From Streptomyces antibioticus (GTDB lineage: Bacteria > Actinomycetota > Actinomycetes > Streptomycetales > Streptomycetaceae): a DNA stretch of 64,000 nucleotides. The position numbers and the translations under genes are program-made. Where the stretch lies: contig NZ_KQ948429.1 of NCBI RefSeq assembly GCF_001514065.1, positions 553,157 through 617,156 of the forward strand, read 5' to 3'. Shown piece by piece: positions 10,017 to 38,752 of this stretch (its first letter is position 1; every line of letters begins with the position of its first letter). A model generated the notes under the pieces. It saw only the letters and a program-made list of their open reading frames with translations, was not told where the DNA came from and made no database searches.

Positions 10017-10025
10017 CCGACCCCC

Positions 10026-11300: not shown

Positions 11301-11325
11301 GACCGGCTCCGGCGGCGGAAGCCGC

Positions 11326-16400: not shown

Positions 16401-16498
16401 TACGCCGAACGCCCCACCCACCAGGAAGCCCCCCGCGCCCCGTGCGACGGTGACCGTACTGCTGATCATGTCGCCGACCACGACGTACGGAGCCCGCC

Positions 16499-18019: not shown

Positions 18020-18035
18020 GGGGATACCTCCCGGC

Positions 18036-18395: not shown

Positions 18396-18408
18396 GACTT
18401 CCTCCGGT

Positions 18409-18470
18409 GTTACCTGTAGAAGCGGTCAACGAGTAACGCGGTTACCGCATACTCCCCCATAAGAGGTAAC
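18409..18470. promoter_or_regulatory. Clustered GGTAAC/GTTACC half-sites between VOC operon and CGNR gene
   Basis: The divergent region holds GTTACC (18409-18414), a GTAAC-GCG-GTTAC palindrome (18433-18445) and GGTAAC (18465-18470). Repetition in both orientations in so short a space suggests binding sites for a dimeric regulator. Which protein binds is unknown. Confidence 0.5.
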
Positions 18471-22389: not shown

Positions 22390-22508
22390 GCCCTCCACCT
22401 TATTCCGCAGCCTCAGGCGCGGACTTTGTGTTGGGTTCGCAACAGCAGTGCCCTGATTTTCCTACGACCCTTGTAAAGGGCACAGCCGTTCCCTGCACAC
22501 TGGGCCCC

Positions 22509-23801
22509 ATGAACGATTGGCCCGAGGCATGGTCCGACGAGAACCGCGGCAACCGCTACGGACGCGGCAGCGCGAGCGCACAGCCCGAAGGCGCCCGCGC
22601 CATGCGGCAGGTCCGCAGGCCCGCCTCGGGCGCGTACGGGGGCGGCCCCGGCCAGTCCGCGCCGCCCTACGGCGGCGGAGTGCCGCAGCAGCCCTCCTAC
22701 GGCGGCGGCTACACCGACGCCCCCGCCGGCGACGGGTACGACAGCGGCTACAACACCGGCCAGGTCTACGGCACCGGCGGCCCGGGCGGTCCAGGTGGCC
22801 GGAGCCGCGGCGAGCGGCCCGCGCCGAACTGGCGCCGCCGTATCAAGTGGACGGCGATCACCGTCGTGACCGTCCTCGTCGTGACGACGATCGGCACGTA
22901 CTTCTGGGCCGACTCCAAGCTCAACCGCGAGGTCGACCTGTCGAAGGTCATCGACCGGCCGGACTCGGGCGAGGGCACCAACTACCTGATCGTCGGCTCC
23001 GACAGCCGTGAGGGCATGTCCGCCGAGGAGAAGAAGAAGCTGCACACCGGGTCCGCCGAGGGCAAGCGCACGGACTCGATGATGATCCTGCACACCGGTG
23101 ACAACGGCGACACGCTGATCTCCCTGCCGCGTGACTCCAACGTGACGATCCCGCAGTTCAAGGGCTCGGAGTCCGGCAAGATCAGGGCGTCCCTGGGCGA
23201 GAACAAGCTGAACGCCGCGTACGCCATCGACGGTCCGACGCTCCTGGTGCGCACCATCGAGTACAACACCGGTCTGCACATCGACCACTACGTCGAGATC
23301 GGCTTCGCCGGCTTCGCCAACATCGTGGACGCGGTCGGCGGCGTCGACATCACCATCCCGAAGGGCGGCATGAAGGACACCAAGTCCGGCGCCGACTTCG
23401 AGGCGGGCAAGCAGACCCTGAACGGCGAGGAGGCCCTGGCCTTCGTCCGTACCCGGTACGCCCTCAAGCGTTCCGACCTGGACCGCACGAAGAACCAGCA
23501 GCAGTTCCTCTCGGCCCTCGCCAACAAGGTCGCGACCCCGTCGACCGTGCTCAACCCCTTCAAGCTCTACCCGACCATGAGCGCCGGCCTCGACACCCTC
23601 ATCGTCGACAAGGACATGGGCCTGTTCGACCTCGCGGACATGTTCTGGGCGATGAAGAGCGTCAACGGCGGCGACGGCAAGTCGATGAACATGCCGATCT
23701 CCGGCTCGGTCAACGGCAACCTCGTCTGGGACAAGGCGAAGGTGAAGACTCTGGTGGACGAGCTGAAGAACGACGAGAAGGTCACCGTCTCCGGCAACTG
23801 A
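22509..23801 (+). CDS. LytR-CpsA-Psr (LCP) family cell-wall glycopolymer ligase
   Basis: A 430-residue type II membrane protein. A cytosolic N-terminus of about 110 residues is low in complexity, with Gly/Tyr/Gln repeats. A single helix follows (WTAITVVTVLVVTTIGTYFW). The LCP domain has NYLIVGSDSRE, the diphosphate-binding SLPRDSNV, KLNAAYAIDGP, and EEALAFVRTRY. LCP enzymes transfer polyprenyl-linked polymers (teichoic or teichuronic acids, capsule) onto peptidoglycan. There is no LytR_C domain after the core. It is the only one of the six LCP genes in this window on the plus strand. Confidence 0.93.
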   Translation: MNDWPEAWSDENRGNRYGRGSASAQPEGARAMRQVRRPASGAYGGGPGQSAPPYGGGVPQQPSYGGGYTDAPAGDGYDSGYNTGQVYGTGGPGGPGGRSRGERPAPNWRRRIKWTAITVVTVLVVTTIGTYFWADSKLNREVDLSKVIDRPDSGEGTNYLIVGSDSREGMSAEEKKKLHTGSAEGKRTDSMMILHTGDNGDTLISLPRDSNVTIPQFKGSESGKIRASLGENKLNAAYAIDGPTLLVRTIEYNTGLHIDHYVEIGFAGFANIVDAVGGVDITIPKGGMKDTKSGADFEAGKQTLNGEEALAFVRTRYALKRSDLDRTKNQQQFLSALANKVATPSTVLNPFKLYPTMSAGLDTLIVDKDMGLFDLADMFWAMKSVNGGDGKSMNMPISGSVNGNLVWDKAKVKTLVDELKNDEKVTVSGN

Positions 23802-24232: not shown

Positions 24233-24400
24233 GGCTCCTCCTCGGGGGGTGCGGAGCCCGGGACGGGCCCCGTGCGCTTCCGTCCTACGCCCGCCCACCG
24301 CCCGGCGCCATCGGGCGGACGGTAATAATCCGGAACGTAACCGACGCACACGCACGGTCTCCGCCATTTCACCCGGGCGACCCGGTCGCCGCCATAAGGG

Positions 24401-25225: not shown

Positions 25226-25347
25226 GAGCCTGGTCTCCTTCGGGCGGCACTGACCGGACATCACCGGTCGGGTTTGGCACCAAACTAGACACAAGTCCGT
25301 CGCCATGGCCGGAAGTTGACCGAAGTTCCGGTCTCACGGGCACCGGT

Positions 25348-26799
25348 TCACAGGCAGCCCACCTCGTCCCCGGTCACCACCCCGAACTCACCCTGATACG
25401 GGTCCTCCGCCCGTACCTTCCGCACCTGTGTGAAGTCCGCCCCGGCGATCACCTTCAGCACCGCTCCCTGCCCCCGTACCGCCCGCAGCTCGCTGCCCGG
25501 CAGCGCCGCCGCCAGTGACTTCGCGGAGCGGTCCCAGCGGGGGTCGTAGGCGACGACCGTGCGCTTGACGGCGCGGTTCGCCGAGGTGACCGGCTGGTGG
25601 GTGGTGCGGAAGCCGGTCGCGGCGAGCTGGGCGTCGACGCGCTTGCCGAGGCCGGCGGTCGCGGTGCCGTTCTCGACCTGGACGCGGATCTGCTGCGGGG
25701 CGACGGCGACCCGTACGGCCTTGCTCTTCGGCTTGTGCACGGCCAGCGGCTTGTCCTCGCGCAGCGCCTGGAAGAGCCGGCCCGCCTTCCGCGCGTCCCA
25801 TTTCAGGGTGGAGCCCACGCCCTGGACGGCGTACCCCATCTGCCCGATCGGGACCGTCGTGAACTCGGAGGAGGACGGCGAGAAGTTCCGCATCGCCCGC
25901 CCCAGGTCCAGGAGTTCGTCCGTGCCGAACTCCCGGTCCGCCCGCACCGAGCCCAGGACCGCCCGTGTCACGTCCCGGAACTTGAGCGGGTTGAGGAGGA
26001 TGCCGGAGGACGTCGCCCGGTCGATCAGCGCCGCCATGAAGCGCTGCTGGCGCTTCATCCGCCCCAGGTCCGCCGCCCCGTCGATGTGCCGCGAGCGGAC
26101 GTACTGGAGGGCCTCGCCGCCCATCAGGGTGTGTGAGCCGGCGGGCAGGTCCAGGCCGGTGTAGGTGTCCTTCAGCGGCTCGGCGGTGCAGATCTTCACG
26201 CCGCCCACGACGTCCACCGTCTTCATGAAGCTGGTGAAGTCGACCTCCAGATAGTGGTCGATCTTCACATGCGTCATCGTCTCGACGGTCCGCACGGTCA
26301 GCTGCGGGCCGCCCTCCGCGTACGCCGCGTTCAGCTTGATGGGGTGGCCGTGGTGCGCGGTGCCGCTGATCTGGTCGGTGTGCGGGGGCGTCATCGCGTA
26401 CGAGTCGCGCGGCAGGCTCACCACGCTGGCCCGCTCCCGGTCCTCCGAGATGTGGACGATCATGATCGTGTCGGTGCAGTGGCAGGGCGCGCCGCCGAGG
26501 TGGTACTTCCGCCGCTCGGCCTCGGTGATCTTGTCCCGGCCGTCGGTGCCGACCAGCAGCACGTTCATGCCGTGCCCGGCTCTGGGCCGGTTCTTCATGT
26601 CCTTGAAGGGGTCCACGCGCGCGATGTCCGCGTCGAGGCTGGAGAGCACCGCGTGCCCGATGCCGGCCGAGGCGAGGATCACCACGGAGAGCGTGGTCAC
26701 CACCCGTGCGGCCCAACGCGGCTTCCGCCGCCGAACGGGTGGCCGCGGCCTCGGTCGGGGCCGGGGGGCGGTGGGGGAGCGGCGGGGCGGCGTGGACAT
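25348..26799 (-). CDS. LCP-family protein with C-terminal LytR_C domain
   Basis: A 483-residue protein. A Pro/Arg-rich cytosolic N-terminus (PRPRPRPPVRRRKPR) precedes a helix (about 33-52). The LCP domain has NVLLVGTDGRD, SLPRDSYAM, KLNAAYAEGGP, KIDHYLEVDF and EALQYVRSRH. A LytR_C domain occupies about 375-465 (IRVQVENGTATAGLGKRVDAQLAATGF). The CHC motif in GGAPCHCTD within the LCP domain is unusual. The ATG at 26799 has GGAGGT upstream. It diverges from a family-2 glycosyltransferase, hinting that the two act on one polymer. Confidence 0.92.
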   Translation of the reverse strand: MSTPPRRSPTAPRPRPRPRPPVRRRKPRWAARVVTTLSVVILASAGIGHAVLSSLDADIARVDPFKDMKNRPRAGHGMNVLLVGTDGRDKITEAERRKYHLGGAPCHCTDTIMIVHISEDRERASVVSLPRDSYAMTPPHTDQISGTAHHGHPIKLNAAYAEGGPQLTVRTVETMTHVKIDHYLEVDFTSFMKTVDVVGGVKICTAEPLKDTYTGLDLPAGSHTLMGGEALQYVRSRHIDGAADLGRMKRQQRFMAALIDRATSSGILLNPLKFRDVTRAVLGSVRADREFGTDELLDLGRAMRNFSPSSSEFTTVPIGQMGYAVQGVGSTLKWDARKAGRLFQALREDKPLAVHKPKSKAVRVAVAPQQIRVQVENGTATAGLGKRVDAQLAATGFRTTHQPVTSANRAVKRTVVAYDPRWDRSAKSLAAALPGSELRAVRGQGAVLKVIAGADFTQVRKVRAEDPYQGEFGVVTGDEVGCL

Positions 26800-26939
26800 G
26801 GGGGACACCTCCGCTGAGACCGGACCTGAGGGCCGTACATGGGATCTTCAGCACCGTAGGCCGATACGATCTGCGGCCCGGGACGCCGCCCCGGGCGGGG
26901 CGCACCGGTGTCCCCCGTTCGCGGTAACGTGAGCCCCCT

Positions 26940-27977
26940 ATGAACGCCAAGCCCGACGTGCAGCTCCCCGCCGTGTCTGTGATCATGCCCGTCCTCGACG
27001 AGGAACGGCATCTGCGCGGAGCCGTCCAAGCGATCCTCGCGCAGGAGTACGCCGGCGAGATGGAGGTCGTGATCGCCCTCGGTCCGTCCAAGGACCGCAC
27101 GGACGAGATCGCCGCCGAGCTCGTACGCGAAGACCCCCGCGTCCACACCGTCCCCAACCCGACCGGCCGCACGCCCGCGGCCCTGAACGCCGCGATCAAG
27201 GCCTCCCGCCATCCGGTCGTGGTCCGCGTCGACGGCCACGGCATGCTCTCGCCGAACTACATCGCCACCGCCGTACGGCTCCTGGAGGAGACCGGCGCGC
27301 AGAACGTCGGCGGCATCATGCACGCCGAGGGCGAGAACGCCTGGGAGGACGCGGTCGCCGCCGCGATGACCTCGAAGATCGGCGTCGGCAACGCGGCCTT
27401 CCACACGGGCGGCCAGGCGGGCCCCGCCGACACCGTCTACCTCGGTGTCTTCCGCCGCGAGGCCCTCGAACAACAGGGCGGCTACAACGAGGAGTTCATC
27501 CGCGCCCAGGACTGGGAGCTGAACTTCCGCATCCGCGAGGCCGGCGGCCTGATCTGGTTCTCGCCGGAGCTGCGGGTGTCGTACCGCCCGAGGCCGTCGG
27601 TGAAGGCGCTGGCCAAGCAGTACAAGGACTACGGCCGCTGGCGGCACGTCGTCGCCCGCTACCACTCCGGCTCGATCAACCTGCGCTACCTCGCCCCGCC
27701 CGTCGCCGTCTGCGCGATCGCGGCCGGCCTCGTGGTCGGCGCGGCCCTGACCCCGCTCGCCTTCGTGATCCCGGGCGGCTACCTCGCGGCGATAGCCCTG
27801 GGCTCACTCCCGGCCGGCAAGGGCCTGTCCCTCAAGGCCCGCCTCCAGATCCCGGTCGCCCTCGCCACGATGCACATGTCGTGGGGGTACGGCTTCCTGA
27901 CCAGCCCCAAGTCGCTGGCACGGAAGGTCATCGCGTCGCGGCGGCCGGCGGTGCGCAGGGTCGACGCGGCTTCGTGA
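26940..27977 (+). CDS. Family 2 glycosyltransferase
   Basis: A 345-residue GT-A enzyme. VSVIMPVLDEERHLRGAVQAIL begins the nucleotide-binding half; the acidic VRVDGHG and the QDWELNFRIREAGG motif (acid/base region) complete the active site. Two hydrophobic helices (about 250-300) anchor the C-terminus to the membrane. It probably adds a sugar to a lipid carrier or wall polymer. Divergent from an LCP gene and bounded by a terminator, it fits the surrounding envelope-polymer genes. Confidence 0.9.
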   Translation: MNAKPDVQLPAVSVIMPVLDEERHLRGAVQAILAQEYAGEMEVVIALGPSKDRTDEIAAELVREDPRVHTVPNPTGRTPAALNAAIKASRHPVVVRVDGHGMLSPNYIATAVRLLEETGAQNVGGIMHAEGENAWEDAVAAAMTSKIGVGNAAFHTGGQAGPADTVYLGVFRREALEQQGGYNEEFIRAQDWELNFRIREAGGLIWFSPELRVSYRPRPSVKALAKQYKDYGRWRHVVARYHSGSINLRYLAPPVAVCAIAAGLVVGAALTPLAFVIPGGYLAAIALGSLPAGKGLSLKARLQIPVALATMHMSWGYGFLTSPKSLARKVIASRRPAVRRVDAAS

Positions 27978-28046: not shown

Positions 28047-28514
28047 TCAGCCGCAGTGGAAGTAGCCCGACACTGGGACGTGGTCCTGCAGGAAGTTGCT
28101 GCCACCGTTGGGCTTCCACATGTCCAGCTCGAAGTTGATGCAGGTGTTCCTGCCGTACACCGTGACGGGACCCGCCTCGTAGCTGAAGTTGCCGTTGTCG
28201 TTGTCGTGCCCGCCGGCCTTGGACCACAGGTCCAGGTTCATGCGGGAACTGACGCCGTAGTAGGAGCCCGCCTTGACGGACCTCGCACAGTTGTTGGTGC
28301 CGTCCCAGTACAGGTAGGTCGTGGCGACGTGCGGGTGGGAGCTCACCGAGTAGTCGTAGTGGTTGATCTGGTCGATCAAGGTCCCGCTGCAGCCGGCGGT
28401 AGCGGCGGCGGACGCGGTGGGGGCGACGGCCATGGGGACCGCGACACCCAGGCCGACGGTCATCGCCGCGGTGGTGATCCAACGGGTGGTTCTGAACTTG
28501 ACGTGCTTGGACAT
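28047..28514 (-). CDS. Small secreted four-cysteine protein, SapA-like family, ends HCG
   Basis: A 155-residue precursor. The signal peptide (KHVKFRTTRWITTAAMTVGL to about TASAAA) is followed by a roughly 115-residue mature domain with four cysteines: AGCSGT, NNCARS, NTCINFE and the terminal FHCG. Aromatic-rich segments YLYWDGTNNC and GSYYGVSSRMNLDLW, and QDHVPVSGYFHCG, match the proteins at 29458 and 29922, defining one subfamily. A distant resemblance to Streptomyces spore-associated protein A (YLTY, NC, AGPV, CG pattern) is from memory. The function is unknown; surface or spore-wall location is likely. Confidence 0.8.
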   Translation of the reverse strand: MSKHVKFRTTRWITTAAMTVGLGVAVPMAVAPTASAAATAGCSGTLIDQINHYDYSVSSHPHVATTYLYWDGTNNCARSVKAGSYYGVSSRMNLDLWSKAGGHDNDNGNFSYEAGPVTVYGRNTCINFELDMWKPNGGSNFLQDHVPVSGYFHCG

Positions 28515-28583
28515 CAGTTGGAGACCTCTCATATCAAGACGTAATGGAGCCGGCCCTCGTCATGGGCCGATGGCCGATGGGGC

Positions 28584-28880
28584 TCAGCCGCAGTGGACGC
28601 CGTAGTCGGCGCGCGTGTAGCTGGAGTCGGCGGCGCCGCCCCAGTCGACCTCGACGCCCTGCTTCCACACCGTGTCGGTGCGGTGCAGACGCAGCCGGGC
28701 GCCCAGGCCCGTGGGCGTGCCCGTCCTGTCGGGGACGGTGACGACGCAGTTCTTGCCGGTGGAGCCGTTGTAGGTGAGGTAGGCAGTTCCCTCACCGACG
28801 TCCATGGTGTCGATCACGCTCCGGCGGCGGTGATGCCGATGACGGCGGCGACCGAGCCAAGTCGCTTCATGGTGAGCATG
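28584..28880 (-). pseudogene. Broken copy of the SapA-like secreted protein gene
   Basis: The first 20 codons (MLTMKRLGSVAAVIGITAAG) match the signal peptide of the intact gene at 28942-29361. The frame then meets a TGA, and the homologous sequence resumes in another frame at SVIDTMDVGEGTAYLTY. About 60 bases, covering the signal cleavage site and first cysteine region, have been deleted. A second, in-frame loss of about 20 codons removes the segment matching YYAGPVYASAAGRC. The end, DWGGAADSSYTRADYGVHCG, still aligns. Upstream sequence (TTGAGTCTCTGTCAG on the plus strand) is also shared, so a recent tandem duplicate has decayed. Confidence 0.82.
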
Positions 28881-28941
28881 GTTGAGTCTCTGTCAGCGCC
28901 TGGGGGTACGAGCGTGATCATTTCCTGGGCGCCGGCGGGGC

Positions 28942-29361
28942 TCAGCCGCAGTGCACGTTGTAGTTGACATGCCAGGTTTCGGTGCCTGCATTGCCGCCCC
29001 AGTCGATGCACCTGCCTGCGGCGGAGGCGTAGACCGGCCCGGCGTAGTACTTGAAGAAGCCCGCGTCGTACTCGCTGTCCGACCAGTCGAGGTTGGTGCG
29101 GTGCAGCCGCACGCGGGCGTCCAGGAGCATGGTGGTGCCCGGTGTGTCGGAGACGGTGACCACACAGTTCTTGCCGGTGGAGCCGCTGTAGGTGAGATAG
29201 GCGGTTCCGGTGCCGACGTCCTTCGTGTCGATCACGCTGTAGCCGGACCCGCAGGCGCCGTTGTAGGTGGCCGCTGAGGCGGTGCCGGTGGCGGCGATCG
29301 TTCCGGCGGCGGCGAGGCCGATGACGGTCGCGACGGAGCCAAGTCGCTTTATTTTGAGCAC
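28942..29361 (-). CDS. SapA-like secreted protein
   Basis: A 139-residue precursor beginning at GTG 29361. The signal peptide ends near GTASAA; the mature domain of about 105 residues starts ATYNGACGSGYSVIDTKDVG. It continues with TAYLTYSGSTGKNCVVTV, YYAGPVYASAAGRCIDWGG and ends VHCG. This is the member most like spore-associated protein A as I remember it. Four cysteines suggest two disulfides. A broken tandem copy lies directly downstream. The gene follows a terminator at 29415-29444, so it probably has its own promoter. Confidence 0.82.
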   Translation of the reverse strand: MLKIKRLGSVATVIGLAAAGTIAATGTASAATYNGACGSGYSVIDTKDVGTGTAYLTYSGSTGKNCVVTVSDTPGTTMLLDARVRLHRTNLDWSDSEYDAGFFKYYAGPVYASAAGRCIDWGGNAGTETWHVNYNVHCG

Positions 29362-29414
29362 GTTTGAGTCCCTGTCAGTGTCCCGCGTGACGGGTCTGGT
29401 CAGTGCATGAGAGG

Positions 29415-29444
29415 CAAGGCCCCTACCGAGGGGAAGGGGCCTTG
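29415..29444 (-). terminator. Intrinsic terminator after the 29458-30365 operon
   Basis: A ten-base stem, CAAGGCCCCT (29415-29424) with AGGGGCCTTG (29435-29444), lies 14 bases past the stop of the minus-strand gene at 29458. Confidence 0.7.
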
Positions 29445-29457
29445 GTCATGGCCAAGT

Positions 29458-29907
29458 TCAGCCGCAGTGGTTGAAGCCGCCGGCCGGAACGCGGTCCTGG
29501 AGCATGTCCGCGCCGCTGGTGTTCCACATGTCGAGCTCGAAGGCGATGCAGGTGTTCTGGCCGTTCACCTTGACCGGGCCCGCGTAGTACTTGAAGTACC
29601 CGCTGTCCGGGTCCGCGCCGCCCTTCTGGCTGTAGAGGGTCAACGACATGCGCGAGCTGACGCCGTAGTACGAGCCGACCTTGTCCGCGCGGACACAGTT
29701 GTTGGTGCCGTCCCAGTACACGTAGGACGTCGCCACATGGGTGCCGCTGTAGTTGTAGTGCTTGATGGTGTCGATGACGCTGCCGGAGCAGGTGCCCGAC
29801 GCGGCCGAGGCGGCCGGTGCGGTGGCCACCGGACCCGCCACGGCGACACCGAGCAGGACGGTGGTGCTCGCCAGCCAGCGGGCGGCCTTGGACTTGAGGA
29901 CACTCAT
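29458..29907 (-). CDS. Small secreted four-cysteine protein, SapA-like family, ends HCG
   Basis: A 149-residue precursor: signal peptide (VLKSKAARWLASTTVLLGVA to about AASAAS), then a mature domain with GTCSGS, NNCVRA, NTCIAFE and NHCG. It shares HVATxYxYWDGTNNC, GSYYGVSSRM and FELDMW with the 28047 protein. GGAG lies six bases before the ATG at 29907. It starts 14 bases after the stop of the 29922 gene, so the two are co-transcribed. The signal peptide shares KSKAAR-LAS with that neighbour, evidence of tandem duplication. Confidence 0.8.
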   Translation of the reverse strand: MSVLKSKAARWLASTTVLLGVAVAGPVATAPAASAASGTCSGSVIDTIKHYNYSGTHVATSYVYWDGTNNCVRADKVGSYYGVSSRMSLTLYSQKGGADPDSGYFKYYAGPVKVNGQNTCIAFELDMWNTSGADMLQDRVPAGGFNHCG

Positions 29908-29921
29908 GTCGGACTCCGATC

Positions 29922-30365
29922 TCAGCCGCAGTGGAAGTAGCCGGAGTTCGGCACGTGGTCCTGGATGATGTTGTTGCCGTTCAGGTTCCACATGTCGGTC
30001 TCGACGGCGATGCAGCGGCCCTTGCCGTAGAACTTGAAGCTCGCGTAGTAGAGGTACTGGCCGTCGTCGCCGGGCGAGACGTAGCCGTCCTTGTCCGTCC
30101 AGGCGTCCACCGCGATACGCGAACGGACCCCGTAGTAGGAGCCCTGCTTCACGGCGGCGACGCAGTTGTACGTGCCGTCCCAGAACAAATAGGTCTTGGC
30201 GACGGTGCCGTTGTAGTTGTTGTTCCAGCTGTCGATCTGGGACCCGTTGCAGCCGTAGGTGGCGGCGCTGGCGGCCGGAGCCGTGACCAGTGAGTAGCCG
30301 GCGATCGTGGACAGCATCATCGCCATGGACGCGAGGTATCTGGCGGCTTTGCTCTTGCGCTTCAA
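29922..30365 (-). CDS. Small secreted four-cysteine protein, SapA-like family, ends HCG
   Basis: A 147-residue precursor starting at TTG 30365 after AGGGGGAG. The signal peptide (KRKSKAARYLASMAMMLSTI to about AASAAT) precedes a mature domain with YGCNGS, YNCVAA, GRCIAVE and FHCG. It has the subfamily motifs YLFWDGTYNC, GSYYGVRSRI and VPNSGYFHCG. It is first of a two-gene operon and lies 147 bases downstream of an LCP gene on the same strand; that gap has an AT-richer stretch (about 30425-30450) that may hold its promoter. Confidence 0.8.
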   Translation of the reverse strand: MKRKSKAARYLASMAMMLSTIAGYSLVTAPAASAATYGCNGSQIDSWNNNYNGTVAKTYLFWDGTYNCVAAVKQGSYYGVRSRIAVDAWTDKDGYVSPGDDGQYLYYASFKFYGKGRCIAVETDMWNLNGNNIIQDHVPNSGYFHCG

Positions 30366-30512
30366 CTTCTCCCCCTGGAGCGCTTGTTGCTTCGGTCGTG
30401 ATCGAGGATCGCTCGAGATCCTGTCATGTTCCGGTAACAAATATGATCACGGCGTAAAGCATTGGCCAGAAATTGATCACCCTGGCCGAAAGCGCTCTCA
30501 GGGGGAAGGCCG

Positions 30513-32120
30513 CTACCAGGTGTAGTCGGGATCGACGTGCATACAGGCCTTGGTGTCCGCGCCGTTGAAGGTGTCGTCCGACTTGGGCAACGAGTCGTCC
30601 TCCTTCGCGGCCTTGTACTTCGTCCCCGAGCGCCAGTCCGCACCGACGACCAGCGTGACCCCGGAGACCTCCGTCGACTTCTTCACCGAACTCATAGGGA
30701 TGCCAAGGGACTTGGCGACCCGCTGGGCGTCGCCCTCCAGGTCGGCGCTCGGATAGCGGACGAGGGTCTTGTCCTCGCTGAGGATCACCGAGGAGTCCGC
30801 CTTGGCTGCGGTGAAGCCCTTGCCGACGAGCAACTCGGTCACATCGGTGGCGCGTCCGGGCGCTGCCGCCGCCGCACCGGTCCGGGTGCCGTTCTGCACC
30901 TGTACGGCGATTTTATCGTCCGCGGCCGCCGGGTCGTCGGAGGTCGCGTCCTCCGTCGTGGTCTTCTTCTTGTCCTTGCCGTCGAGCGCGATGTCCTCAC
31001 GGACGAGCCGGAAGACCTTCTTCGCCTCCTCCGGCTTGGGCACCACCCGGTTGCCGTCCGGGGCGTACTGCCACGGCATCGTCGTCATGGTGATGCGCTT
31101 CGTGGGGACCTTCCGCAGCTCTTTGCTCAGGTCGTACAACTTGGTCACGGTGCCGAGCCCGTCATCCACCGTGACCGCCTCGGTGGCCGTCTCGGCGAGC
31201 TTGCGCAGCTTGTTCGGGCTGCCCAGCGTCGCGTTCTCACGCAGCTGACGGACCATCGAGTTCATGTACTGGTGCTGGGCCTTGGCCCGCGCGATGTCGG
31301 TGCCGTCCTCGAAGCCGTACCGGGTGCGCAGCCACTGGAGGGCCTGCTTGCCCTTGACGGGGGTGGTGCCCTCTTTCAGCCGCAGGCCGGAGCCGTGACC
31401 GGTTCTGGTGTGCGAGTAGATGTTGGCGTCCACGCAGACCGGCACGCCGCCGATCGCGTCGGCCATCGACACCACACCCGCGAAGTCGACCATGATGAAG
31501 TGGTCGATGTGGATGTCGGTCAGCTTCTCCCAGGTCGCGACCGTGCAGCCGGGGCCGCCGCGACCGAGGGAGTCGTTGGTCATCGCCGAGGTGAGTGCCG
31601 AGTAGACCTTGTCGTTGTCGGGGTCGGTGCACTTCGGTATGTCGAGCAGGGTGTCGCGCGGCATGCTGACGACCGACATGTTGGAGCGGTCCGCCGAGAG
31701 GTGCAGCAGCATCTGGACGTCCGCGCGCGGCGGGGTGTTGTACGTCTCCTTGGCGCCACCGAGCTTCTGGTTCTCGGCGTTGTCCCGGGCGTCGGAGCCG
31801 ATCAGCAGGATGTTCAGCGGCGTCTGACCGGCGGCGTTCGCCTTCGTCTCGGCCGCCCTGTCCTTCTCGTCGCCGATGTTCAGGTCGTCCTTCTTGATGT
31901 TGCCGTTGAGGTGCCGGTAGTAGAGGTACCCGGCGCCCGCGGTGCCGACTATGACCACCGCCAGCACGATCGCCGCCCAGCGCAGGAACCGCCTGCCCCG
32001 CCTGCGGTCCCCTTTGCCGCGCCGCCCCCTGCCGTGACCGGCGGGCGGTCTCGGGCCCTGCGGTGTGAGGGACATCGTGTCCTCGACCGCGGGCACCTCG
32101 CCGCGCACGCTCTGCGTCAA
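30513..32120 (-). CDS. LCP-family protein with LytR_C domain (paralogue pair member 1)
   Basis: A 535-residue type II membrane protein. The cytosolic N-terminus is basic (GRGRRGKGDRRRGRR), then a helix (about 45-65). The LCP core has NILLIGSDARD, SMPRDTLLDIP, HIDHFIMVDFAGVVSMADAIGG and QALQWLRTRYGF. LytR_C follows (IAVQVQNGTRTGAAA to GADWRSG). TTG 32120 is preferred over ATG 32075: GGGGAGG precedes it, the 15 intervening codons all end in G or C, and its N-terminus (TQSVRGE) matches that of the paralogue starting at 34612. The C-terminal tail ends in a single-Cys ACMHVDPDYTW. Confidence 0.92.
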   Translation of the reverse strand: MTQSVRGEVPAVEDTMSLTPQGPRPPAGHGRGRRGKGDRRRGRRFLRWAAIVLAVVIVGTAGAGYLYYRHLNGNIKKDDLNIGDEKDRAAETKANAAGQTPLNILLIGSDARDNAENQKLGGAKETYNTPPRADVQMLLHLSADRSNMSVVSMPRDTLLDIPKCTDPDNDKVYSALTSAMTNDSLGRGGPGCTVATWEKLTDIHIDHFIMVDFAGVVSMADAIGGVPVCVDANIYSHTRTGHGSGLRLKEGTTPVKGKQALQWLRTRYGFEDGTDIARAKAQHQYMNSMVRQLRENATLGSPNKLRKLAETATEAVTVDDGLGTVTKLYDLSKELRKVPTKRITMTTMPWQYAPDGNRVVPKPEEAKKVFRLVREDIALDGKDKKKTTTEDATSDDPAAADDKIAVQVQNGTRTGAAAAAPGRATDVTELLVGKGFTAAKADSSVILSEDKTLVRYPSADLEGDAQRVAKSLGIPMSSVKKSTEVSGVTLVVGADWRSGTKYKAAKEDDSLPKSDDTFNGADTKACMHVDPDYTW

Positions 32121-32305
32121 TTCCCTGTCCTCCCCACCCTGCGGACTGCCGAGCCTCCCCAAGCCCGACGACCGGCCTTTATGCCTCGTCCGCCTGGTCG
32201 GAAAGCGTACGCGAGAACCACTGTCGAATGCGGCGTCGAATGCCGATCGAGCTCTCGGACGTGAGCACGCTTCATCATTCTGCGGGGAGTTAGGAGTTTG
32301 CTGTG

Positions 32306-32342
32306 GGGTGCGACCTCGGCGCGCGCCCGCCGGGCCGCACCC
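32306..32342 (-). terminator. GC-rich hairpin after the 32349 gene
   Basis: GGGTGCG (32306-32312) pairs with CGCACCC (32336-32342) around a GC-rich interior that can pair further. It lies a few bases past the stop of the minus-strand secreted-protein gene. Confidence 0.5.
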
Positions 32343-32348
32343 GCCGGG

Positions 32349-32786
32349 TCAGTTACAGCCCATGGCGTTGCTGGTCCACGTGAGCTCGGGTGAGGTGAGG
32401 CGGAGGTAGACGCAGGTGCTGGGCGCGTAGACGTACACGGGACCCGCGTACTTCGTGTAGTTGCCCAGGTCTTCGTGCCAGCTGCCACCGGCCGCCCTGA
32501 TACCCATGCCGATGCCGCTGGGATTGCCGTAGTCGGTGTTGTTGCTGTCCTTGACGTTGACGGCGCAGTTGTAGCCGGAGGACGGGTTGTAGAGCAGGAC
32601 GCTCCAGTAGTACTGCTTCGGGATGCCCATGTCGCCGGCGTCGACGGTGACCGTGTACCCGGATCCGCACACCGATCTCGCCAGGCTCACGACGTCGCTC
32701 TTGGTCGACGCGCTCGCGTTCGTCGCCAGTGGGGCGACGACGAGGGCCAGTGCCGAGAGTATGACGGCGGCCAGTCTTCTGCGCAT
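32349..32786 (-). CDS. Small secreted four-cysteine protein, divergent SapA-like member
   Basis: A 145-residue precursor with ATG 32786 seven bases after GGAG. The signal peptide ends near NASAST. The mature domain shows SVCGSGYTVTVD, YWSVLLYNPSSGYNCAVNV, NYTKYAGPVYVYAPSTCVYL and ends AMGCN instead of HCG. The YxxYAGPVYVYA block and cysteine spacing place it with the 34728 protein and with SapA-like proteins generally. It lies between two paralogous LCP genes, all on the minus strand. Confidence 0.78.
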   Translation of the reverse strand: MRRRLAAVILSALALVVAPLATNASASTKSDVVSLARSVCGSGYTVTVDAGDMGIPKQYYWSVLLYNPSSGYNCAVNVKDSNNTDYGNPSGIGMGIRAAGGSWHEDLGNYTKYAGPVYVYAPSTCVYLRLTSPELTWTSNAMGCN

Positions 32787-32962
32787 GGGTGTGCTCCTCG
32801 GTAGAGGGGGAAAGATCGTCCGGGCGATCTCACCATCGAACACTCGTCGCAACTTTGCTGTGAGGCGGGCGTGACCATTAATTGATCATGGAATGGCTTG
32901 TTCCGGGCGCCCGCGACCGCATCCACCGCACGCTTGACGGGCCGCTGGTGGCCGCCAACGGT

Positions 32963-34612
32963 TCACCAGCGATACCGCTTGTACACGTCCATGCACTGAT
33001 CGCCGTCCGCGCCGTTCATCTCGTCGGCGTTACCCGGAAGGTCCCCGGCCTTCGGAGAGGACTGCTTCGGATAGGTCGTACCCGAGCGCCAGTCGGCGCC
33101 CACGACGACGGTGACACCGGAGACGTCGGTCGACCGGTTCACCGAACTCAGCGGAATTCCGAGCGACTTGGCGACCCGCTGGGCGTCGCCCTCGAGGTCT
33201 GCGCTCGGGAACCTCACCACGGTCCGGTCCTCGGCGAGCGCCGCTGAGGTGTCCGCAGTGGCCCGGGCGAAGCCCTTCCGCACGAGCAGCCCGCTGATTG
33301 CCCCCGCCCGCCCGGAGACCGGACCGAGCGTGCTGGACCTCGTCGCGTTCCGTACCAGGACGCCGATCTGATCGTCGGCTGCCGCAGGGTCCTTGGAGAC
33401 CCTCTCCTCGGCCGACTTCATCTTCTCCGAAGGCGTGCTCTTGTCGTCGAACGGCACGTCATCGCGGAGCATTTGCCACATCTTCTCGGCTCCAGCGCCG
33501 TCTGGGACCAGATGGTTCCTATTCTGGTCGTCCTCGACGGTCGGCAGAGTCGTCATGGTGATCCGGTCCGCCGGGACCGACTTGAGCTGCATGCCCAGGT
33601 CGTACAGCTTCTTGACGCTGCCGACCTCCTCGGAGACGGTCAGCGACTTCGTAGCCGCCTCGGCCAGCTTCATCAGCCGCCCGGTGTCCGTGAAGACGTT
33701 CTGCTTCTTCAGTGTGCGGATCATCGAGTTCATGTACATGTGCTGGGCCTTGGCTCGGCCCAGATCGCTGTAGAAGGCGTGGCGTGTGCGCAGCCACTGC
33801 AACGCCTGCTTGCCCTTGACCTCTTTCCGGCCGGCCGTCATCTTCAAGCCGGAACCTCCGGGCACGCCGGGCATCGGGCGGTCCCACACGTTCTGCTTCA
33901 CACAGACTTCGACGCCGCCGATGGCGTCCGCCATGCTCACCACGCCGGCGAAGTCGATCGTCATCCAGTGGTCGATGTAGATCCCCGTGAGGTTCTGCCA
34001 GGTGGCCAGGGTGCAGCCGGCCCCGCCGCGGGCCAGCGACGTGTTGATGATGTCGTTGGTCGCCGGGTATGTGGTGCCCGTCTGCGGATCCGTGCACTTG
34101 GGAATGTCGACGCGGGTGTCCCGCGGGATGCTCACCACCGCGGCACTTTTTCGGTCCGCGGACAGGTGGATGAGCATCTGCACGTCGCCCAGTGGCGGGT
34201 TGCCGCGGGTGTCCTTGCTGCCACCGAGCTTCACGTTCTCGTCGGAGTCGCGGCTGTCGGAGCCGATGAGAAGAATGTTCAGCGGAGTCTGGCCGGCGGC
34301 GTTGGGCGCGGCCTTGTTCGCCTTGGAGTCACCGCTGCTGCGCTCACCCTTCTCGATGTTGCCGTTGAGGTGCTGGTAGTACAGGTAACCGGCGCCCGCC
34401 GTGCCCAATATCAGCACTGCGAGTGTGGTCGCGGACCATCTGAGCACGCGATGACCGCGTCGCGGTCGCCGTCTCCCGTGTTGGCCTCCGCTCTTCGGCT
34501 CTGCAGCCTGGTCCCTGCCCTCGGACGGGCTGTCGGTCCGACCCCGTCCGAGAGGGGGGCCGGTGCCCGAAAACGTCCCTCTTCCCTGCCCCCGCACACT
34601 GTTCTGCGGCAC
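32963..34612 (-). CDS. LCP-family protein with LytR_C domain (paralogue pair member 2)
   Basis: A 549-residue protein starting at GTG 34612 after GGGGAGGG. It is a close paralogue of the LCP protein at 30513: both share GTAGAGYLYY-HLNGNI, NAAGQTPLNILLIGSD, DFAGVVSMADAIGG, KGKQALQWLRTR, SADLEGDAQRVAKSLGIP and VVGADWRSGT. The helix is about 60-80, the LCP domain about 110-330, LytR_C about 400-510. The tails also correspond (NGADGDQCMDVYKRYRW and NGADTKACMHVDPDYTW). The two arose by duplication, possibly together with the secreted-protein genes between them. Confidence 0.92.
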   Translation of the reverse strand: MPQNSVRGQGRGTFSGTGPPLGRGRTDSPSEGRDQAAEPKSGGQHGRRRPRRGHRVLRWSATTLAVLILGTAGAGYLYYQHLNGNIEKGERSSGDSKANKAAPNAAGQTPLNILLIGSDSRDSDENVKLGGSKDTRGNPPLGDVQMLIHLSADRKSAAVVSIPRDTRVDIPKCTDPQTGTTYPATNDIINTSLARGGAGCTLATWQNLTGIYIDHWMTIDFAGVVSMADAIGGVEVCVKQNVWDRPMPGVPGGSGLKMTAGRKEVKGKQALQWLRTRHAFYSDLGRAKAQHMYMNSMIRTLKKQNVFTDTGRLMKLAEAATKSLTVSEEVGSVKKLYDLGMQLKSVPADRITMTTLPTVEDDQNRNHLVPDGAGAEKMWQMLRDDVPFDDKSTPSEKMKSAEERVSKDPAAADDQIGVLVRNATRSSTLGPVSGRAGAISGLLVRKGFARATADTSAALAEDRTVVRFPSADLEGDAQRVAKSLGIPLSSVNRSTDVSGVTVVVGADWRSGTTYPKQSSPKAGDLPGNADEMNGADGDQCMDVYKRYRW

Positions 34613-34727
34613 CCGGCCCACCCTCCCCGCCCCACACCTGACATGGCTCTGTCTCGCGTCAAGTGAGACGTGGGACAGAGCCACTTGGTGCATTCAAGAT
34701 TCATCATTCTGCGGTGGGCTGCGAGGC

Positions 34728-35204
34728 TCAGCCGCAGTGCACGTCTTCGTAGATGGTCCTGCCGCCGCCGGCCCCCGTGCCACCGCTCGTGTAGTTGAGC
34801 TCGCCGTAGATGTCGATGCAGCTACCGGCGGCGTAGACGTACAACGGGCCCGCGTAGGAGGTGTAGTTGGAGTTGGTCCCGTCGAGCTTCCAGGTGCTGG
34901 AACCGCTCTTGCGCAGGCCGGCGATGATGTGGTTCGCGCCGCCGACCTCGCTGTCGTTCGCTCGGGTGATGACGCAGTTGTTCCCGTTCGAGCTGCTGTA
35001 GTAGACGTCGATGTAGCCGACGGTGGGATTGGGGTACCAGCCGTCCTTGATCGCCCAGGACTTCAGGAAGCCGTAGGAGCTACCGCAGTAGTTGACCCGG
35101 GACATCGCGTCAGCCTGTCCGGCTGAAAGGCCTATCAGTCCGGCCGTCAGCAGAGTGACTGCTCCAGCCGCCGAAGTGATCCGCGTGCGCAACATGCCGC
35201 GCAA
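34728..35204 (-). CDS. Small secreted four-cysteine protein, divergent SapA-like member, ends HCG
   Basis: A 158-residue precursor. TTG 35204 has AGGAGG six bases upstream; the ATG nine bases later is too far from it. The signal peptide ends near GQADA. Mature motifs: VNYCGSSYGFLKS, VGYIDVYYSSSNGNNCVITR, YTSYAGPLYVYAAGSCIDIYGE, and the terminal YEDVHCG. It precedes the LCP gene at 32963 on the same strand with a 115-base gap, so secreted-protein and LCP genes alternate along the strand. Confidence 0.8.
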   Translation of the reverse strand: MRGMLRTRITSAAGAVTLLTAGLIGLSAGQADAMSRVNYCGSSYGFLKSWAIKDGWYPNPTVGYIDVYYSSSNGNNCVITRANDSEVGGANHIIAGLRKSGSSTWKLDGTNSNYTSYAGPLYVYAAGSCIDIYGELNYTSGGTGAGGGRTIYEDVHCG

Positions 35205-35322
35205 GGCAACCTCCTAGGAGTTTCAAAGGATTGACGCGCGATCAGTTAACCCTCGGACGGTTCGGCTAGGCGATCAAGGTCGTGTTTTGTGACCTTCACC
35301 TCACATGGGGCGGGGCAGCCGA

Positions 35323-35364
35323 ACGGGCCTGCCACGCGGCCGGGTTGACGTGTGGCAGGCCCGT
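35323..35364 (-). terminator. Intrinsic terminator after the LCP gene at 35379
   Basis: A 13-base perfect stem (ACGGGCCTGCCAC at 35323-35335 with 35352-35364) lies 15 bases past the stop of the minus-strand LCP gene. Confidence 0.8.
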
Positions 35365-35378
35365 GAGGTCGCGGTTGG

Positions 35379-37130
35379 TTACTTAGCGCACTTGACCTCG
35401 TTCGCCGTGGTCTTGTCGACGTTCGACGCCACCGCGGTGGAGTTCATCTTCACCCCGGCCCCCTTGAAGTCCTCGCCCAGCGTCAGCGTCATCGTCGGCA
35501 GCCCCTGGGAGTTGGTGACGCTCTTGCCGGGCTTCATCATCGAGCCCTTCAGCCCCAGGATCGAGGCCAGCCGACGGGCCTGGTCGGCCTGGTCCGGGGC
35601 GTACTCCAGGGTCGTCTTCGCCTGTGACGCGCCGGCGTTGCCCGCGTTCTCGGACTTGGTCACGCCCGCCTCGGTCTGGAGGTAGGTGAGCTCCTCCTGC
35701 GCGCTGCCACCGGGAGCGCCACCGTTGAGGATCCGCACCCGCACCTCGGAGGCGTCCGACTTGGTGCCCTTCAACCGGGCGGCGACGGCTGCCTTCTCCT
35801 TCTTCTCCTTGGCCTTGACCTCGGTGAAGGAGGTGTCGCTCTTGATCATGTTGAAGACCTGGGAGGCGTTCGGCTCAAGGGGCACCACGGTCGCCTTGAC
35901 GACCTCGGCGGGGTTGTCCTTGACCGGGACCGTGGTGAAGGTGATGTTCTTCATCGGCACCTTCTTCAGCTCCAGCGCCACGTCCTTGAGTGTGCTGGCC
36001 TTCCCTATGCCGGTGTCGACGGTGAGCGCCTTGGTGGCCGCGTTGGCCAGCTTGATCAGCTTGGTCGGGCTGGTGAGGGTGTCGCCGGAGGTCATCTTGC
36101 GCATCAGCGAACTCATGAACTGCTGCTGGACCTTGATGCGGTCCAGGTCGCCCTGGTTGCCGAAGCTGTGCCGGGTGCGGACGAAGGCGAGTGCTTCCTC
36201 GCCCTCGATCGTGTGCTTGCCGGCCGACAGGTTCAGATGCGAGTCGGGGTCGTTCACGTTCTTGGCCAGGCAGACCTCCACACCGCCCACCGCGCTCGTC
36301 AGCGTCTTCACCGCGTTGAAGTCGGCCATCGCGAAGTGGTTCACGTCGATGCCGGTGAGCTCCTCGACCGTCTTCATGGTGCAGCCGGGGTTGCGGCCGA
36401 ACTGGCCGAGGCTGGTGTTGAATCGCTTGTTCTGGGTGCCCGGGATGATCTTCTTGGTGCCGTCGTCCTCGGTGATCTCGCAGTCCGGCACGTTGACGAT
36501 CAGGTCCCGGGGGATGCTCATCGCGGTCGCGTTCGTCCGGTCCTTGGAGACGTGCAGCAGGATGTTGGTGTCGGCGTGGCCGATGCTGCCCTTGTCGCCG
36601 TAGCCCTCGTTGCCCGCCCCGGTCCGCTTGTCGGTGCCGATGATCAGGATGTTGAAGGCCTCGTCCTTGCTGAACCCGTCGTCGGCCACATTGCCGACGT
36701 CCTCGGTCGTGACGTTGCCTTCGAGGTGCTTCAGATACAGATACGCGGCACCGGCCGTGCCGACCAGCACGAAGGCCATCACGCCGCCGGTCCACAGCAG
36801 TATTTTCTTGCCGCGCGCCTTCTTCTTGACCGGCCGCCGGTTGCGGCGCCCGGGCGGCGGCTCCTCGGGCGCACCGCGCCGACGCCGTGGCGGCGGTACG
36901 TCACGGCCGGGGGCGTCGGCGGGCGACGTCCGTCCTGGCGCGGCCGTTCCGCCGCGCGGCCCCCCTGAAGAGCCCGCCGGTCGCGGGGTCGTTCTGCTGC
37001 GAGGCCCCGGGACCGCTGATTGCGGTGCGGAAGGAGTCAGTCGCAGTTCGTATTCGCCAGTGTTCGGATTGAGTACCCACTGGTCTGCGGGGTCGATGTC
37101 GTCCGCCCGCCCACGGCCTTGCGCGTCCAC
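35379..37130 (-). CDS. LCP-family protein with long disordered N-terminus and LytR_C domain
   Basis: A 583-residue protein from GTG 37130, about 12 bases after GGAGG. The first 105 residues are Pro/Arg/Gly-rich, but begin with a DQWVLNPNTGEYELRL segment. A helix at about 110-130 is followed by the LCP core: NILIIGTDKRTG, SIPRDLIVNVP, GIDVNHFAMADFNAVKTLTSAVGG and EEALAFVRTRHSFG. LytR_C lies about 460-560 (VRVRILNGGAPGGSAQEEL). Its terminus VKCAK carries a lone cysteine. It is 223 bases downstream of another LCP gene on the same strand. Confidence 0.92.
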   Translation of the reverse strand: MDAQGRGRADDIDPADQWVLNPNTGEYELRLTPSAPQSAVPGPRSRTTPRPAGSSGGPRGGTAAPGRTSPADAPGRDVPPPRRRRGAPEEPPPGRRNRRPVKKKARGKKILLWTGGVMAFVLVGTAGAAYLYLKHLEGNVTTEDVGNVADDGFSKDEAFNILIIGTDKRTGAGNEGYGDKGSIGHADTNILLHVSKDRTNATAMSIPRDLIVNVPDCEITEDDGTKKIIPGTQNKRFNTSLGQFGRNPGCTMKTVEELTGIDVNHFAMADFNAVKTLTSAVGGVEVCLAKNVNDPDSHLNLSAGKHTIEGEEALAFVRTRHSFGNQGDLDRIKVQQQFMSSLMRKMTSGDTLTSPTKLIKLANAATKALTVDTGIGKASTLKDVALELKKVPMKNITFTTVPVKDNPAEVVKATVVPLEPNASQVFNMIKSDTSFTEVKAKEKKEKAAVAARLKGTKSDASEVRVRILNGGAPGGSAQEELTYLQTEAGVTKSENAGNAGASQAKTTLEYAPDQADQARRLASILGLKGSMMKPGKSVTNSQGLPTMTLTLGEDFKGAGVKMNSTAVASNVDKTTANEVKCAK

Positions 37131-37353
37131 GGTTGTCTGAATCCTCCGTCGGGGCCACGCGGCGCCTTCCCCCTCAAAGGCGCTCGGGTCTCGGTCAAAC
37201 AGTGCGCAAGCCTAACTACGGCCGGGTGCACCGGATCGCTCACACTATCCGGCCGGTCCCCTGGCAAGCGACGACGGTGACAAATTCCACGTCCCTACAA
37301 CTGGGCAATCCACCCATTTCCTTGAACGTATGTGCGTCGCCTTGGTAATCGCT

Positions 37354-38610
37354 TTACTTGCAGGTGTCCTCGGCGGCCGTGTTTCCACGAAATGTGGGCG
37401 CGGGCGTAACGGCCACGACGGGCCCTTCGGGTCGCTCGGCGCCGGACTTCCCGTCCCCGAGACCCGGTTCTTCTTGCGAACCATCGCTCGAATTGAGGTT
37501 TTTTGTCGTGGAATCCCGCGGAAATTCCTCGGCGACCGCCACCGGCGCGTCCGTGCGCAGCTGGGTGAACAGCTTCTCCGCCTCGGCTTCGACGAGTTGA
37601 TCGCGGTTGGCGTCGTAGGTGTACGACTCCCGCGGCACGGTCAGGAATTGCACACGTTCGGTGGGGATGTCGCGCAGTCCGCGCACGAGGTCGTACAAAC
37701 CGCGCAAGTTCGCCAGATCCGGATCGGTCGTGAGCGAGGACGTGGCCGCGTCCAGCACCGGATAGAGCTTCACCGGATTGAGCAGGACGTCGTTGCTCTG
37801 CACTTTGTTGACGAGCGCCCCGAGGAACCGTTGCTGCCGGTCCATCCGGTCGGTGTCGCTGCCGTCGCCGATCGACTTGCGGGCGCGGACGTAGCCGAGG
37901 GCCTGCTCCCCGTCGAGCGTCACCTTGCCCGCCGGGAGCTTCAGCTTGGCGGCCTTGTCGTTGATCGGCTTCGTCAGGCAGATCTCGACGCCGTCCACCG
38001 CGTCGACCATGTCCTTGAAGCCGTGGAAGTCGACGACCATGTGATGGTCGATCCGGATGCCGGTCAGCTTCTCCACGGTCCGGATGGTGCAGGCCGAACC
38101 GCCCTTCTGAAAGGCGGAGTTGAACATCGCGAACATGGGCTCGGTCCGGCTGCCGTCCGCCTGGAGACAGGCCGGTACGTCCACCATCAGATCGCGGGGG
38201 AGCGAGACGGCGGTGGCGGTGTGCCGCCCGGCGGAGAGGTGCAGCAGGATCGTCGTGTCCGAGCGCTCGGTCCCCGAGTCCCGCCCGTAGCGCGCGTTGC
38301 CGTCCCCGGAGCGCGAGTCCGACCCGATCAGCAGGATGTTCTGCGCGTCCTTGACGAGCGCCGTGGGCCGCTCCTTCTCGTACCGGGCGAGTTCGGCGGC
38401 GGCGGCGTTGTCGGGCGTGATGTTCCCGTCGAGCTTGGCGTAGAGCGCCCACCCGGTCCCGACGGCCGCCACGAGGACGACGCCCACCCCGATCGCCCCG
38501 CCCCGCAGCCAGCGCCGCCGACGCCGCCGTATCAGCCCCCGCCCGGTGGCAGAAGCCCCCGCTCCCGGACCGAGGGTGCCTTTGGGGGGCGTACCTGCGG
38601 TGTCGGTCAC
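37354..38610 (-). CDS. LCP-family protein without LytR_C domain
   Basis: A 418-residue protein. GTG 38610 (TDTAGTPPKG...) is preferred because AGGGG lies about 11 bases upstream; a GTG four codons earlier overlaps that site. The N-terminus is basic with five to six consecutive arginines before a helix (about 38-57). The LCP core has NILLIGSDSRSGDG, SLPRDLMVDVP, RIDHHMVVDFHGFKDMVDAVDG and EQALGYVRARKS. After the core is a disordered tail ending EDTCK, again with a single penultimate-region cysteine. It heads the row of minus-strand LCP and secreted-protein genes. Confidence 0.92.
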   Translation of the reverse strand: MTDTAGTPPKGTLGPGAGASATGRGLIRRRRRRWLRGGAIGVGVVLVAAVGTGWALYAKLDGNITPDNAAAAELARYEKERPTALVKDAQNILLIGSDSRSGDGNARYGRDSGTERSDTTILLHLSAGRHTATAVSLPRDLMVDVPACLQADGSRTEPMFAMFNSAFQKGGSACTIRTVEKLTGIRIDHHMVVDFHGFKDMVDAVDGVEICLTKPINDKAAKLKLPAGKVTLDGEQALGYVRARKSIGDGSDTDRMDRQQRFLGALVNKVQSNDVLLNPVKLYPVLDAATSSLTTDPDLANLRGLYDLVRGLRDIPTERVQFLTVPRESYTYDANRDQLVEAEAEKLFTQLRTDAPVAVAEEFPRDSTTKNLNSSDGSQEEPGLGDGKSGAERPEGPVVAVTPAPTFRGNTAAEDTCK

Positions 38611-38752
38611 GATTCGGTCCACCCCTCATGGCGTACGAGCGTGTGGTGCGGTTCGCTCTTACGACGATGGCGTGGATGGGAGGCGGGGGCGTGTCGGGTT
38701 GGGCCGGACGGGGGACTGACGGGTTCTTCTTGAGGGCGCTGAGGACGGCGCC

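Follow-up and report, generated by a model that had tools for sequence, protein, structure and literature searches.

The 64,000-nt stretch of Streptomyces antibioticus DNA analyzed here (the window) carries on its minus strand, between positions 28047 and 38622, four genes for LytR-CpsA-Psr (LCP) proteins and seven genes for small secreted four-cysteine proteins, here named SAPs, of which six are intact and one is broken. To the left of this array, a GT2 glycosyltransferase gene and two further LCP genes round off the cluster. Coordinates and gene calls confirm the succession of LCPs, secreted proteins and one broken copy on a single strand that was described in the initial annotation of this DNA. 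The genes are listed from right to left, with the E-values of their matches; loci of other genomes carry L numbers.

LCPa, 37354..38622, minus strand: LCP domain only (PF03816, 8e-49); by position, the counterpart of S. venezuelae vnz_13685 (synteny and published gene list)
LCPb, 35379..37130, minus strand: LCP and LytR_C domains (PF03816, 1.6e-46; PF13399, 1.9e-10); by position and architecture, the counterpart of CglA (vnz_13690)
SAP7, 34728..35195, minus strand: 155 aa (profile E 6e-52); counterpart in L042, 97% identical
LCPc, 32963..34693, minus strand: LCP domain protein (TIGR00350, 2e-36)
SAP6, 32349..32801, minus strand: ends in GCN, a start farther upstream (to 32843) is possible (profile E 1e-45); counterparts in L041 and L127
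LCPd, 30513..32108, minus strand: LCP domain protein, paralogue of LCPc by alignment (TIGR00350, 5e-37)
SAP5, 29922..30365, minus strand: TTG start, SAP4 close behind (profile E 4e-58); counterparts in five other loci
SAP4, 29458..29907, minus strand: 149 aa (profile E 2e-61); counterparts in L041-L043, 93% identical
SAP3, 28942..29361, minus strand: 139 aa (profile E 2e-49)
SAP2, 28584..28892, minus strand: broken copy of a SAP3 paralogue (partial profile match, 5.9e-9)
SAP1, 28047..28514, minus strand: 155 aa (profile E 2e-64)
GT2 glycosyltransferase, 26940..27977, plus strand: conserved locus anchor (PF00535, 2e-20); by position, the counterpart of vnz_13700; in 105/111 genomes of the genus
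LCPe, 25348..26808, minus strand: LCP and LytR_C domains (PF03816, 4e-45; PF13399, 6e-13); by position, the counterpart of vnz_13705
LCPf, 22428..23801, plus strand: LCP domain only (PF03816, 3e-45); by position, the counterpart of vnz_13715

All six intact SAPs can be aligned, share four conserved cysteines and begin with a Sec-type signal region (the latter judged by eye), as was first noted for them. None matches a Pfam family or an NCBIfam model above the cut-off, and when two pairs were compared by BLAST, an E-value of 3e-10 was obtained for one and only 0.032 for the other. A profile built from the six intact proteins of the window (A1) recovers this, its own training set, with E-values no higher than 1e-45 and SAP2, the broken copy, with 6e-9; independent evidence comes from four further SAP copies elsewhere in the genome, which it matches with E-values from 5e-25 to 7e-6. 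Judged from alignment and profile, the six intact SAPs are one family. Their domain spans about 105 residues, and its four conserved cysteines presumably form two disulphides. The C-terminal HCG attributed to five of the six proteins is indeed there, the sixth (SAP6) ending in GCN. A YAGPV-like block is also present as a block, but it is altered in three proteins, to YAS in SAP5 (29922-30365), YAGPL in SAP7 (34728-35195) and EAGPV in SAP1 (28047-28514). Sortase-anchored surface proteins are marked by an LPxTG-type signal with a hydrophobic tail; by eye, no such C-terminal signal and tail is seen in the SAPs, whose chains stop at HCG or GCN. Pfam Inhibitor_I36 and DUF2690 gave no match in the six SAPs. 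In SAP2, a stop follows the first part of the signal peptide and the block of the third cysteine is absent, while its apparent orthologues in L041-L043, recognized by position and sequence, are intact.

All six LCPs of the window (LCPa-f) contain a LytR_cpsA_psr domain above the curated cut-off (Pfam/NCBIfam), and PF03816 has 12 matches genome-wide, 6 of them in the window. Part of the conserved Arg and Asp residues of LCP domains are catalytic; in an alignment of the six proteins, D89, R91, R134, D135, R238, R240, D247 and R250 are invariant. The LCP hot spot of S. venezuelae consists of vnz_13685, cglA (13690), 13695, the glycosyltransferase 13700, 13705 and 13715 (Bhowmick et al., PMC11481543), and its S. 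coelicolor counterpart is listed in a review as SCO3042-3048 (PMC7831098). LCPa, LCPb, LCPc/d, GT2, LCPe and LCPf, assigned by position, match the vnz cluster in order and domain content. By gene order, the LCP part of the array is therefore the known Streptomyces LCP cluster, with the same LCP order around a glycosyltransferase gene, and not a new one. The published accounts differ in that their accessible parts name no small secreted genes between the LCPs. Likewise, among open-licence papers we found none linking spore-associated protein or small secreted proteins with LytR or LytR-CpsA-Psr proteins in Streptomyces. Among these papers, the initial remark that no description of such a linked system was known holds for the SAPs, but not for the LCP cluster. 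Cell shape and sporulation suffer when a Streptomyces LCP ligase such as CglA is lost, with misshaped spores and misplaced septa in S. venezuelae (PMC11481543), and disruption of SCO3043 gives non-sporulating colonies and slightly more open pellets, for which the authors suggest attenuation of an adhesion system (PMC4391728). The LCP enzymes of these counterpart clusters thus matter for development, sporulation and surface behaviour.

Distribution of SAPs and their linkage to LCP genes

The A1 profile was used to scan 392 genomes of the genus. Strong matches (E 1e-27 or better) occur in 10 of them, including the window's own, and in 9/9 of the other genomes the SAP genes are found beside GT2, interspersed with or adjoining the same set of LCP genes; as this cut-off picks close relatives of the query, shared ancestry explains part of the fixed locus. 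In L123 and L125, weak hits (1e-4) seem to reflect signal peptides in common and were rejected as SAPs. A scan of named genomes with a single SAP protein gave nine loci, 4 at the LCP locus (in Streptomyces sp. S3(2020), WM6386, S. justiciae (L043) and S. sindenensis) and 5 elsewhere, and looser matches to the family (E up to 1e-5) were found in 30 of 61 genomes. On the other hand, none of 60 loci with distant SAPs (51 stretches around matches of other genomes, 4 of the own genome and 5 of the named ones) has an LCP match in the flanks examined, at E 1e-15 or even at 1e-3; these flanks, sometimes ended by contigs, reach at least 8 kb on both sides in 43 and at least 5 kb in 50 of the 59 loci measured. 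For the four other SAPs of the own genome, the stretch of about 20 kb around each is free of LCP matches. A general LCP linkage of the SAP family is therefore rejected. The initial annotation had counted homologues scattered away from LCP genes against its proposal; the family as a whole is scattered in this way, while the strong relatives lie in the LCP locus in every genome in which they were found. LCP linkage belongs to these SAP subfamilies and not to the whole family.

The alternating arrangement of LCP and SAP genes is true of the window genome, but three close relatives are ordered otherwise: L043 has four LCPs followed by five SAPs, and L041 and L042 show other interleavings. L119, L120 and L126 have a single SAP each. 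The repeated pairs of LCP and SAP genes thus describe the window genome rather than a conserved unit. In a tree of 39 linked and 74 other SAP domains (72 profile hits and two annotated plasmid proteins), the LCP-linked SAPs form about four groups separated by unlinked ones, and the label "linked" takes five changes, at least two of which are forced by starred branches. From this tree, several SAP lineages are likely to have entered the LCP locus, with only two of the changes firmly supported.

Proportions of synonymous (pS) and non-synonymous (pN) differences, calculated on frames that took in some upstream bases, gave a mixed outcome as to horizontal transfer or exchange of SAPs. In the distant loci (L119, L120, L122-L127), the pS of SAPs is mostly like that of their neighbours, while in L041, L042 and L121 several SAPs have lower values (0.08-0.22 vs 0.20-0.34 for GT2 and LCPe). 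pN is smaller than pS in every pair given, narrowly in some. A long residence with many losses fits these values best, and local exchange is possible.

SAP domains on kinases and wall hydrolases

With an alignment of the SAP domain free of signal peptide (profile A5), the domain was found in 64/246 genomes and 18/103 genera of a class sample, 20 of the 64 genomes belonging to Streptomyces. Thirty-four long frames, in which the domain starts beyond residue 200 or occurs several times, were recovered; 27 were judged to be true fusions, and seven with no Pfam match were dropped by eye as chance frames. With four further proteins, this gives 31 fusions, which include counterparts from related genomes and do not represent 31 independent events. 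The Pfam partners are Pkinase (17), Peptidase_M23 (4), Amidase_2 (2) and CHAP (2); by eye, the six proteins left by subtraction, which match no family, look membrane-anchored and contain a linker. Among the 31, SAP was never seen joined to an enzyme outside wall or signalling functions. The SAP domain is C-terminal in 31/31. In the kinase fusions it follows a membrane span and a long linker (by eye), and this part of the protein is presumably extracellular. The two CHAP proteins carry three SAP repeats each; weak Pfam hits of SAP repeats to NOMO_3rd and TIG were under the cut-off and were not used. In genome G529, which has 12 SAP matches, two Ser/Thr kinases, each carrying SAP at its C-terminus, are encoded a short distance apart (L226:2430-8080).

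This architecture recalls two known kinds of module. The PASTA domains of PknB-type kinases and wall enzymes are likewise extracellular and C-terminal, with SAP standing at the place of PASTA in PknB, whose outer domain and PASTA domains bind muropeptides (PMC3145798). SAP differs from PASTA by its four conserved cysteines and is not a member of that family: Pfam PASTA matched none of the window SAPs and is not among the 11 families matched by the 31 fusions. The second likeness is to the wall-binding repeats of autolysins (SH3b, LysM, PG_binding_1), since SAP is C-terminal on CHAP, M23 and amidase enzymes and triple in the two CHAP proteins, but none of the 31 fusions has a Pfam match to SH3b, LysM or PG_binding_1.

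Proposed wall binding and alternative explanations

Because of the fusions to wall hydrolases and the PASTA-kinase-like architecture, the SAPs are most likely non-covalent wall-binding proteins, a role as LCP substrates being less likely. We give an even chance to the specific proposal that the SAP of the LCP locus is a free-standing secreted wall-binding domain, held non-covalently on the wall that this locus finishes. Besides the fusions, the fixed locus of the strong relatives, the other secreted families of the interval (see below) and the developmental phenotypes of the counterpart clusters speak for it. SAPs would be exported via Sec, form two disulphides and bind peptidoglycan or its attached glycopolymers in the cell wall; this binding, and not sortase or LCP chemistry, would hold them on the wall, so that hyphae or spores would have their surface coated or modified. 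Action on the wall surface finished by the LCP locus would explain why they are encoded there, and with their number and kinds differing between lineages they would resemble a variable outer coat above an invariant machinery for polymer attachment. We consider possible, though with less confidence, a wider role of SAP as an undescribed wall-recognition module of actinomycetes, equivalent to PASTA and SH3b/LysM domains elsewhere, with which kinase fusions would sense and hydrolase fusions would be targeted, while free copies, recruited several times into the LCP locus, would read or cap glycopolymers. A domain family with no Pfam or NCBIfam match is found on Ser/Thr kinases, on wall hydrolases and within the LCP locus; if SAP binds the wall, a ligand would be offered for a set of kinases. 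Concerning the earlier proposal that the small proteins are wall components, the fusions favour the wall role, but the general LCP linkage that went with it is unsupported.

Several observations weigh against wall binding at the LCP locus. A PDB sequence search with SAP found no relative, the best E-values (0.43 and 0.34) being at chance level. The fusions come from other genera, none having been seen for an LCP-linked SAP, and kinase sensor domains need not bind the wall. The SAP tree has few columns and some long branches, and the value that disfavours a single linked clade (approximately unbiased test, p 0.040) is marginal, as the group was named after linkage had been seen. The ten S. coelicolor LCPs besides PdtA are described as giving no severe phenotype (PMC7831098), which conflicts with the report on SCO3043. 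Finally, we examined 60 GT2-anchored loci, namely those with the highest GT2 scores among 105 genomes and so not a random sample (left out were the own genome, two known SAP carriers, six loci near contig ends and 36 lower-ranking ones). A SAP is present in one of them (L158), and the other 59 have LCPs without any SAP. LCPs therefore do not need SAPs, which are a lineage-specific addition to the LCP locus.

Alternatively, the gaps of the LCP cluster could form a neutral hot spot that tolerates insertions, and linkage would reflect inheritance, local exchange and duplication rather than joint work with LCPs, an explanation we regard as rather unlikely. Across a GT2-LCPb-LCPe tree of 74 loci, of which 15 were selected for their SAPs and 59 lack them, SAP presence has to change ten times, and such patchiness would be expected of a neutral site, as would the unconserved gene order, the broken copy in the window, the insertion-type or unrelated genes seen by eye in 3/59 SAP-free loci, and the lower SAP pS of L041, L042 and L121, which local exchange could give. 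The same holds for the behaviour of extra LCP copies. Their association with SAP presence (5/12 vs 6/58, Fisher p 0.017, with LCP counts entered by hand) leaves no signal in independent pairs (about 1 for, 1 against and 5 equal of 7), four of the five expanded SAP loci being sisters, and the idea that LCP number grows with SAPs was dropped once relatedness was counted. Against a neutral site, six of the seven SAP copies are intact, at least two and probably five changes separate linked from unlinked SAPs, and, as far as the loci were examined, linked groups occur nowhere but in this interval. Moreover, the cargo is not random. Other small secreted families occur in the same interval of 4/15 SAP-bearing loci, with DUF2690 in L122 and L123 (Pfam) and L125 (phmmer) and Inhibitor_I36 above the cut-off in L124 and below it in L125. 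Among the 59 SAP-free loci, no relatives of this cargo were found by a mechanical scan supplemented with phmmer, which was added as the scan had missed 4/39 linked SAPs (L043, L044, L123 and L158). The association (Fisher p 0.0012) comes down to just three differing independent pairs (p 0.25), which is a further point against the reading we favour. In some lineages, the interval behaves as a site for small secreted proteins.

It is improbable, in our view, that SAPs serve in competition or protection, masking a phage receptor or inhibiting foreign wall enzymes and being kept beside the genes for the receptor polymer. Their lineage-specific presence, the tandem paralogues with a decayed copy, and the neighbours in L124 that match the peptidase-inhibitor family Inhibitor_I36 above the cut-off would suit such a function, but PADLOC, searched up to E 1, had no family matching any of the six SAPs, PHROG matches were at chance level (E 0.085 or more), and pN below pS throughout gives no clear sign of diversifying change. 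The fusions, too, point to wall anchoring or sensing.

A further possibility, to which we attach little weight, is that SAPs are coat proteins of spores or aerial hyphae in the sense of SapA, with a structural function at the surface and incidental wall binding. SapA (SCO0409) of S. coelicolor is located on the outer surface of spores (PMC7042404), and a surface role of SAPs, by analogy with it, would fit. By tblastn, SAPs match two RefSeq plasmid records annotated as spore-associated protein A or spore-associated protein (4e-10 and 2e-5), whereas the other 10 of the 12 records comprise 6 hypothetical proteins, 3 without a feature and 1 without annotation. The better match is between SAP7 and WP_100834333.1 of Kitasatospora fiedleri, annotated as spore-associated protein A; both have the pattern CGS..NC..C..HCG, and in the SAP tree this protein is nearest to the SAP7 group, in a weak clade with long branches. 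The resemblance to SapA, as originally proposed, is in this way supported by the annotation names of matched relatives; the likeness is that of a small Sec-exported four-cysteine protein, and the difference is that the SAPs form a multi-copy array within the LCP locus. As evidence for a coat protein, the annotation of the matched protein is a name only.

Least probable is the suggestion of the initial annotation that SAPs are LCP substrates, modified by LCP activity or attached to the wall through it, since nothing was found for it beyond adjacency, extra LCPs do not track SAPs, LCP enzymes are described as glycopolymer transferases (PMC7831098), relatives lie away from LCP genes in the flanks examined at all 60 distant loci, no protein substrate of LCP enzymes is known to us, and the fusion forms bring their own membrane span or enzyme.

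Upstream elements and further genes of the locus

The leader of SAP5 (30422-30479, minus strand) contains TGATCA twice and the element ACCGGAACATGACA at 30422..30435; five other loci have near-identical elements preceding a SAP1 or SAP5 gene. An ACYGGAACATG element is found ahead of SAP1 or SAP5 in six loci and, in the same scan, before no LCP frame, and it recurs with a preceding TGATCA (CGATCA in L119) in L041, L042, L119, L120 and L121. With up to 3 mismatches, the 14-mer occurs 9 times in the window vs 7.9 expected by chance, the exact form only at SAP5. TGATCA lies upstream of 17/40 linked vs 3/63 unlinked SAPs; as it is also near the 5' end of 19/78 LCP frames, no shared regulon of SAPs is claimed. 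No match to a sigma-E type pattern (GGAAC, 15-19 bases, then CGTT, CGTC, GGTC or GGTT) turned up in the 260 bp ahead of 12 locus genes; this pattern covers less than the published list of promoters, which includes sco3044 and whiB (PMC6767563).

Two neighbouring genes of the window lie between LCPf and LCPe on the minus strand. A small cysteine-rich protein with a Csp-like look (23861-24367; DUF326 just above the cut-off) is also found beside LCPf in several relatives. Between it and LCPe is a gene for a protein that by eye resembles SAM-dependent methyltransferases (24401-25306) and that, among the locus listings compared, shows in the window and L043 only.

Other loci carry additional genes in the LCP cluster. 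In L123, two DUF2690 genes (8961-10920) run in the direction opposite to that of the nearby SAP, and a small secreted protein with no Pfam match (11168-11593) is strongly matched by phmmer to part of a long L124 frame (16160-18454), so that a third secreted family may share the LCP locus in L123 and L124. L124 (12689-16085) and L125 (6159-9630), both of which also have small secreted proteins in the LCP locus, contain an inserted three-gene efflux-like cassette, which by eye consists of an HlyD-like protein, an ABC ATPase and an FtsX/MacB-like permease. In genome G011, a SAP-free locus with six LCP genes has, between its GT2 and LCP genes, a frame that by eye looks like a terpene synthase (L170:4188-5294).

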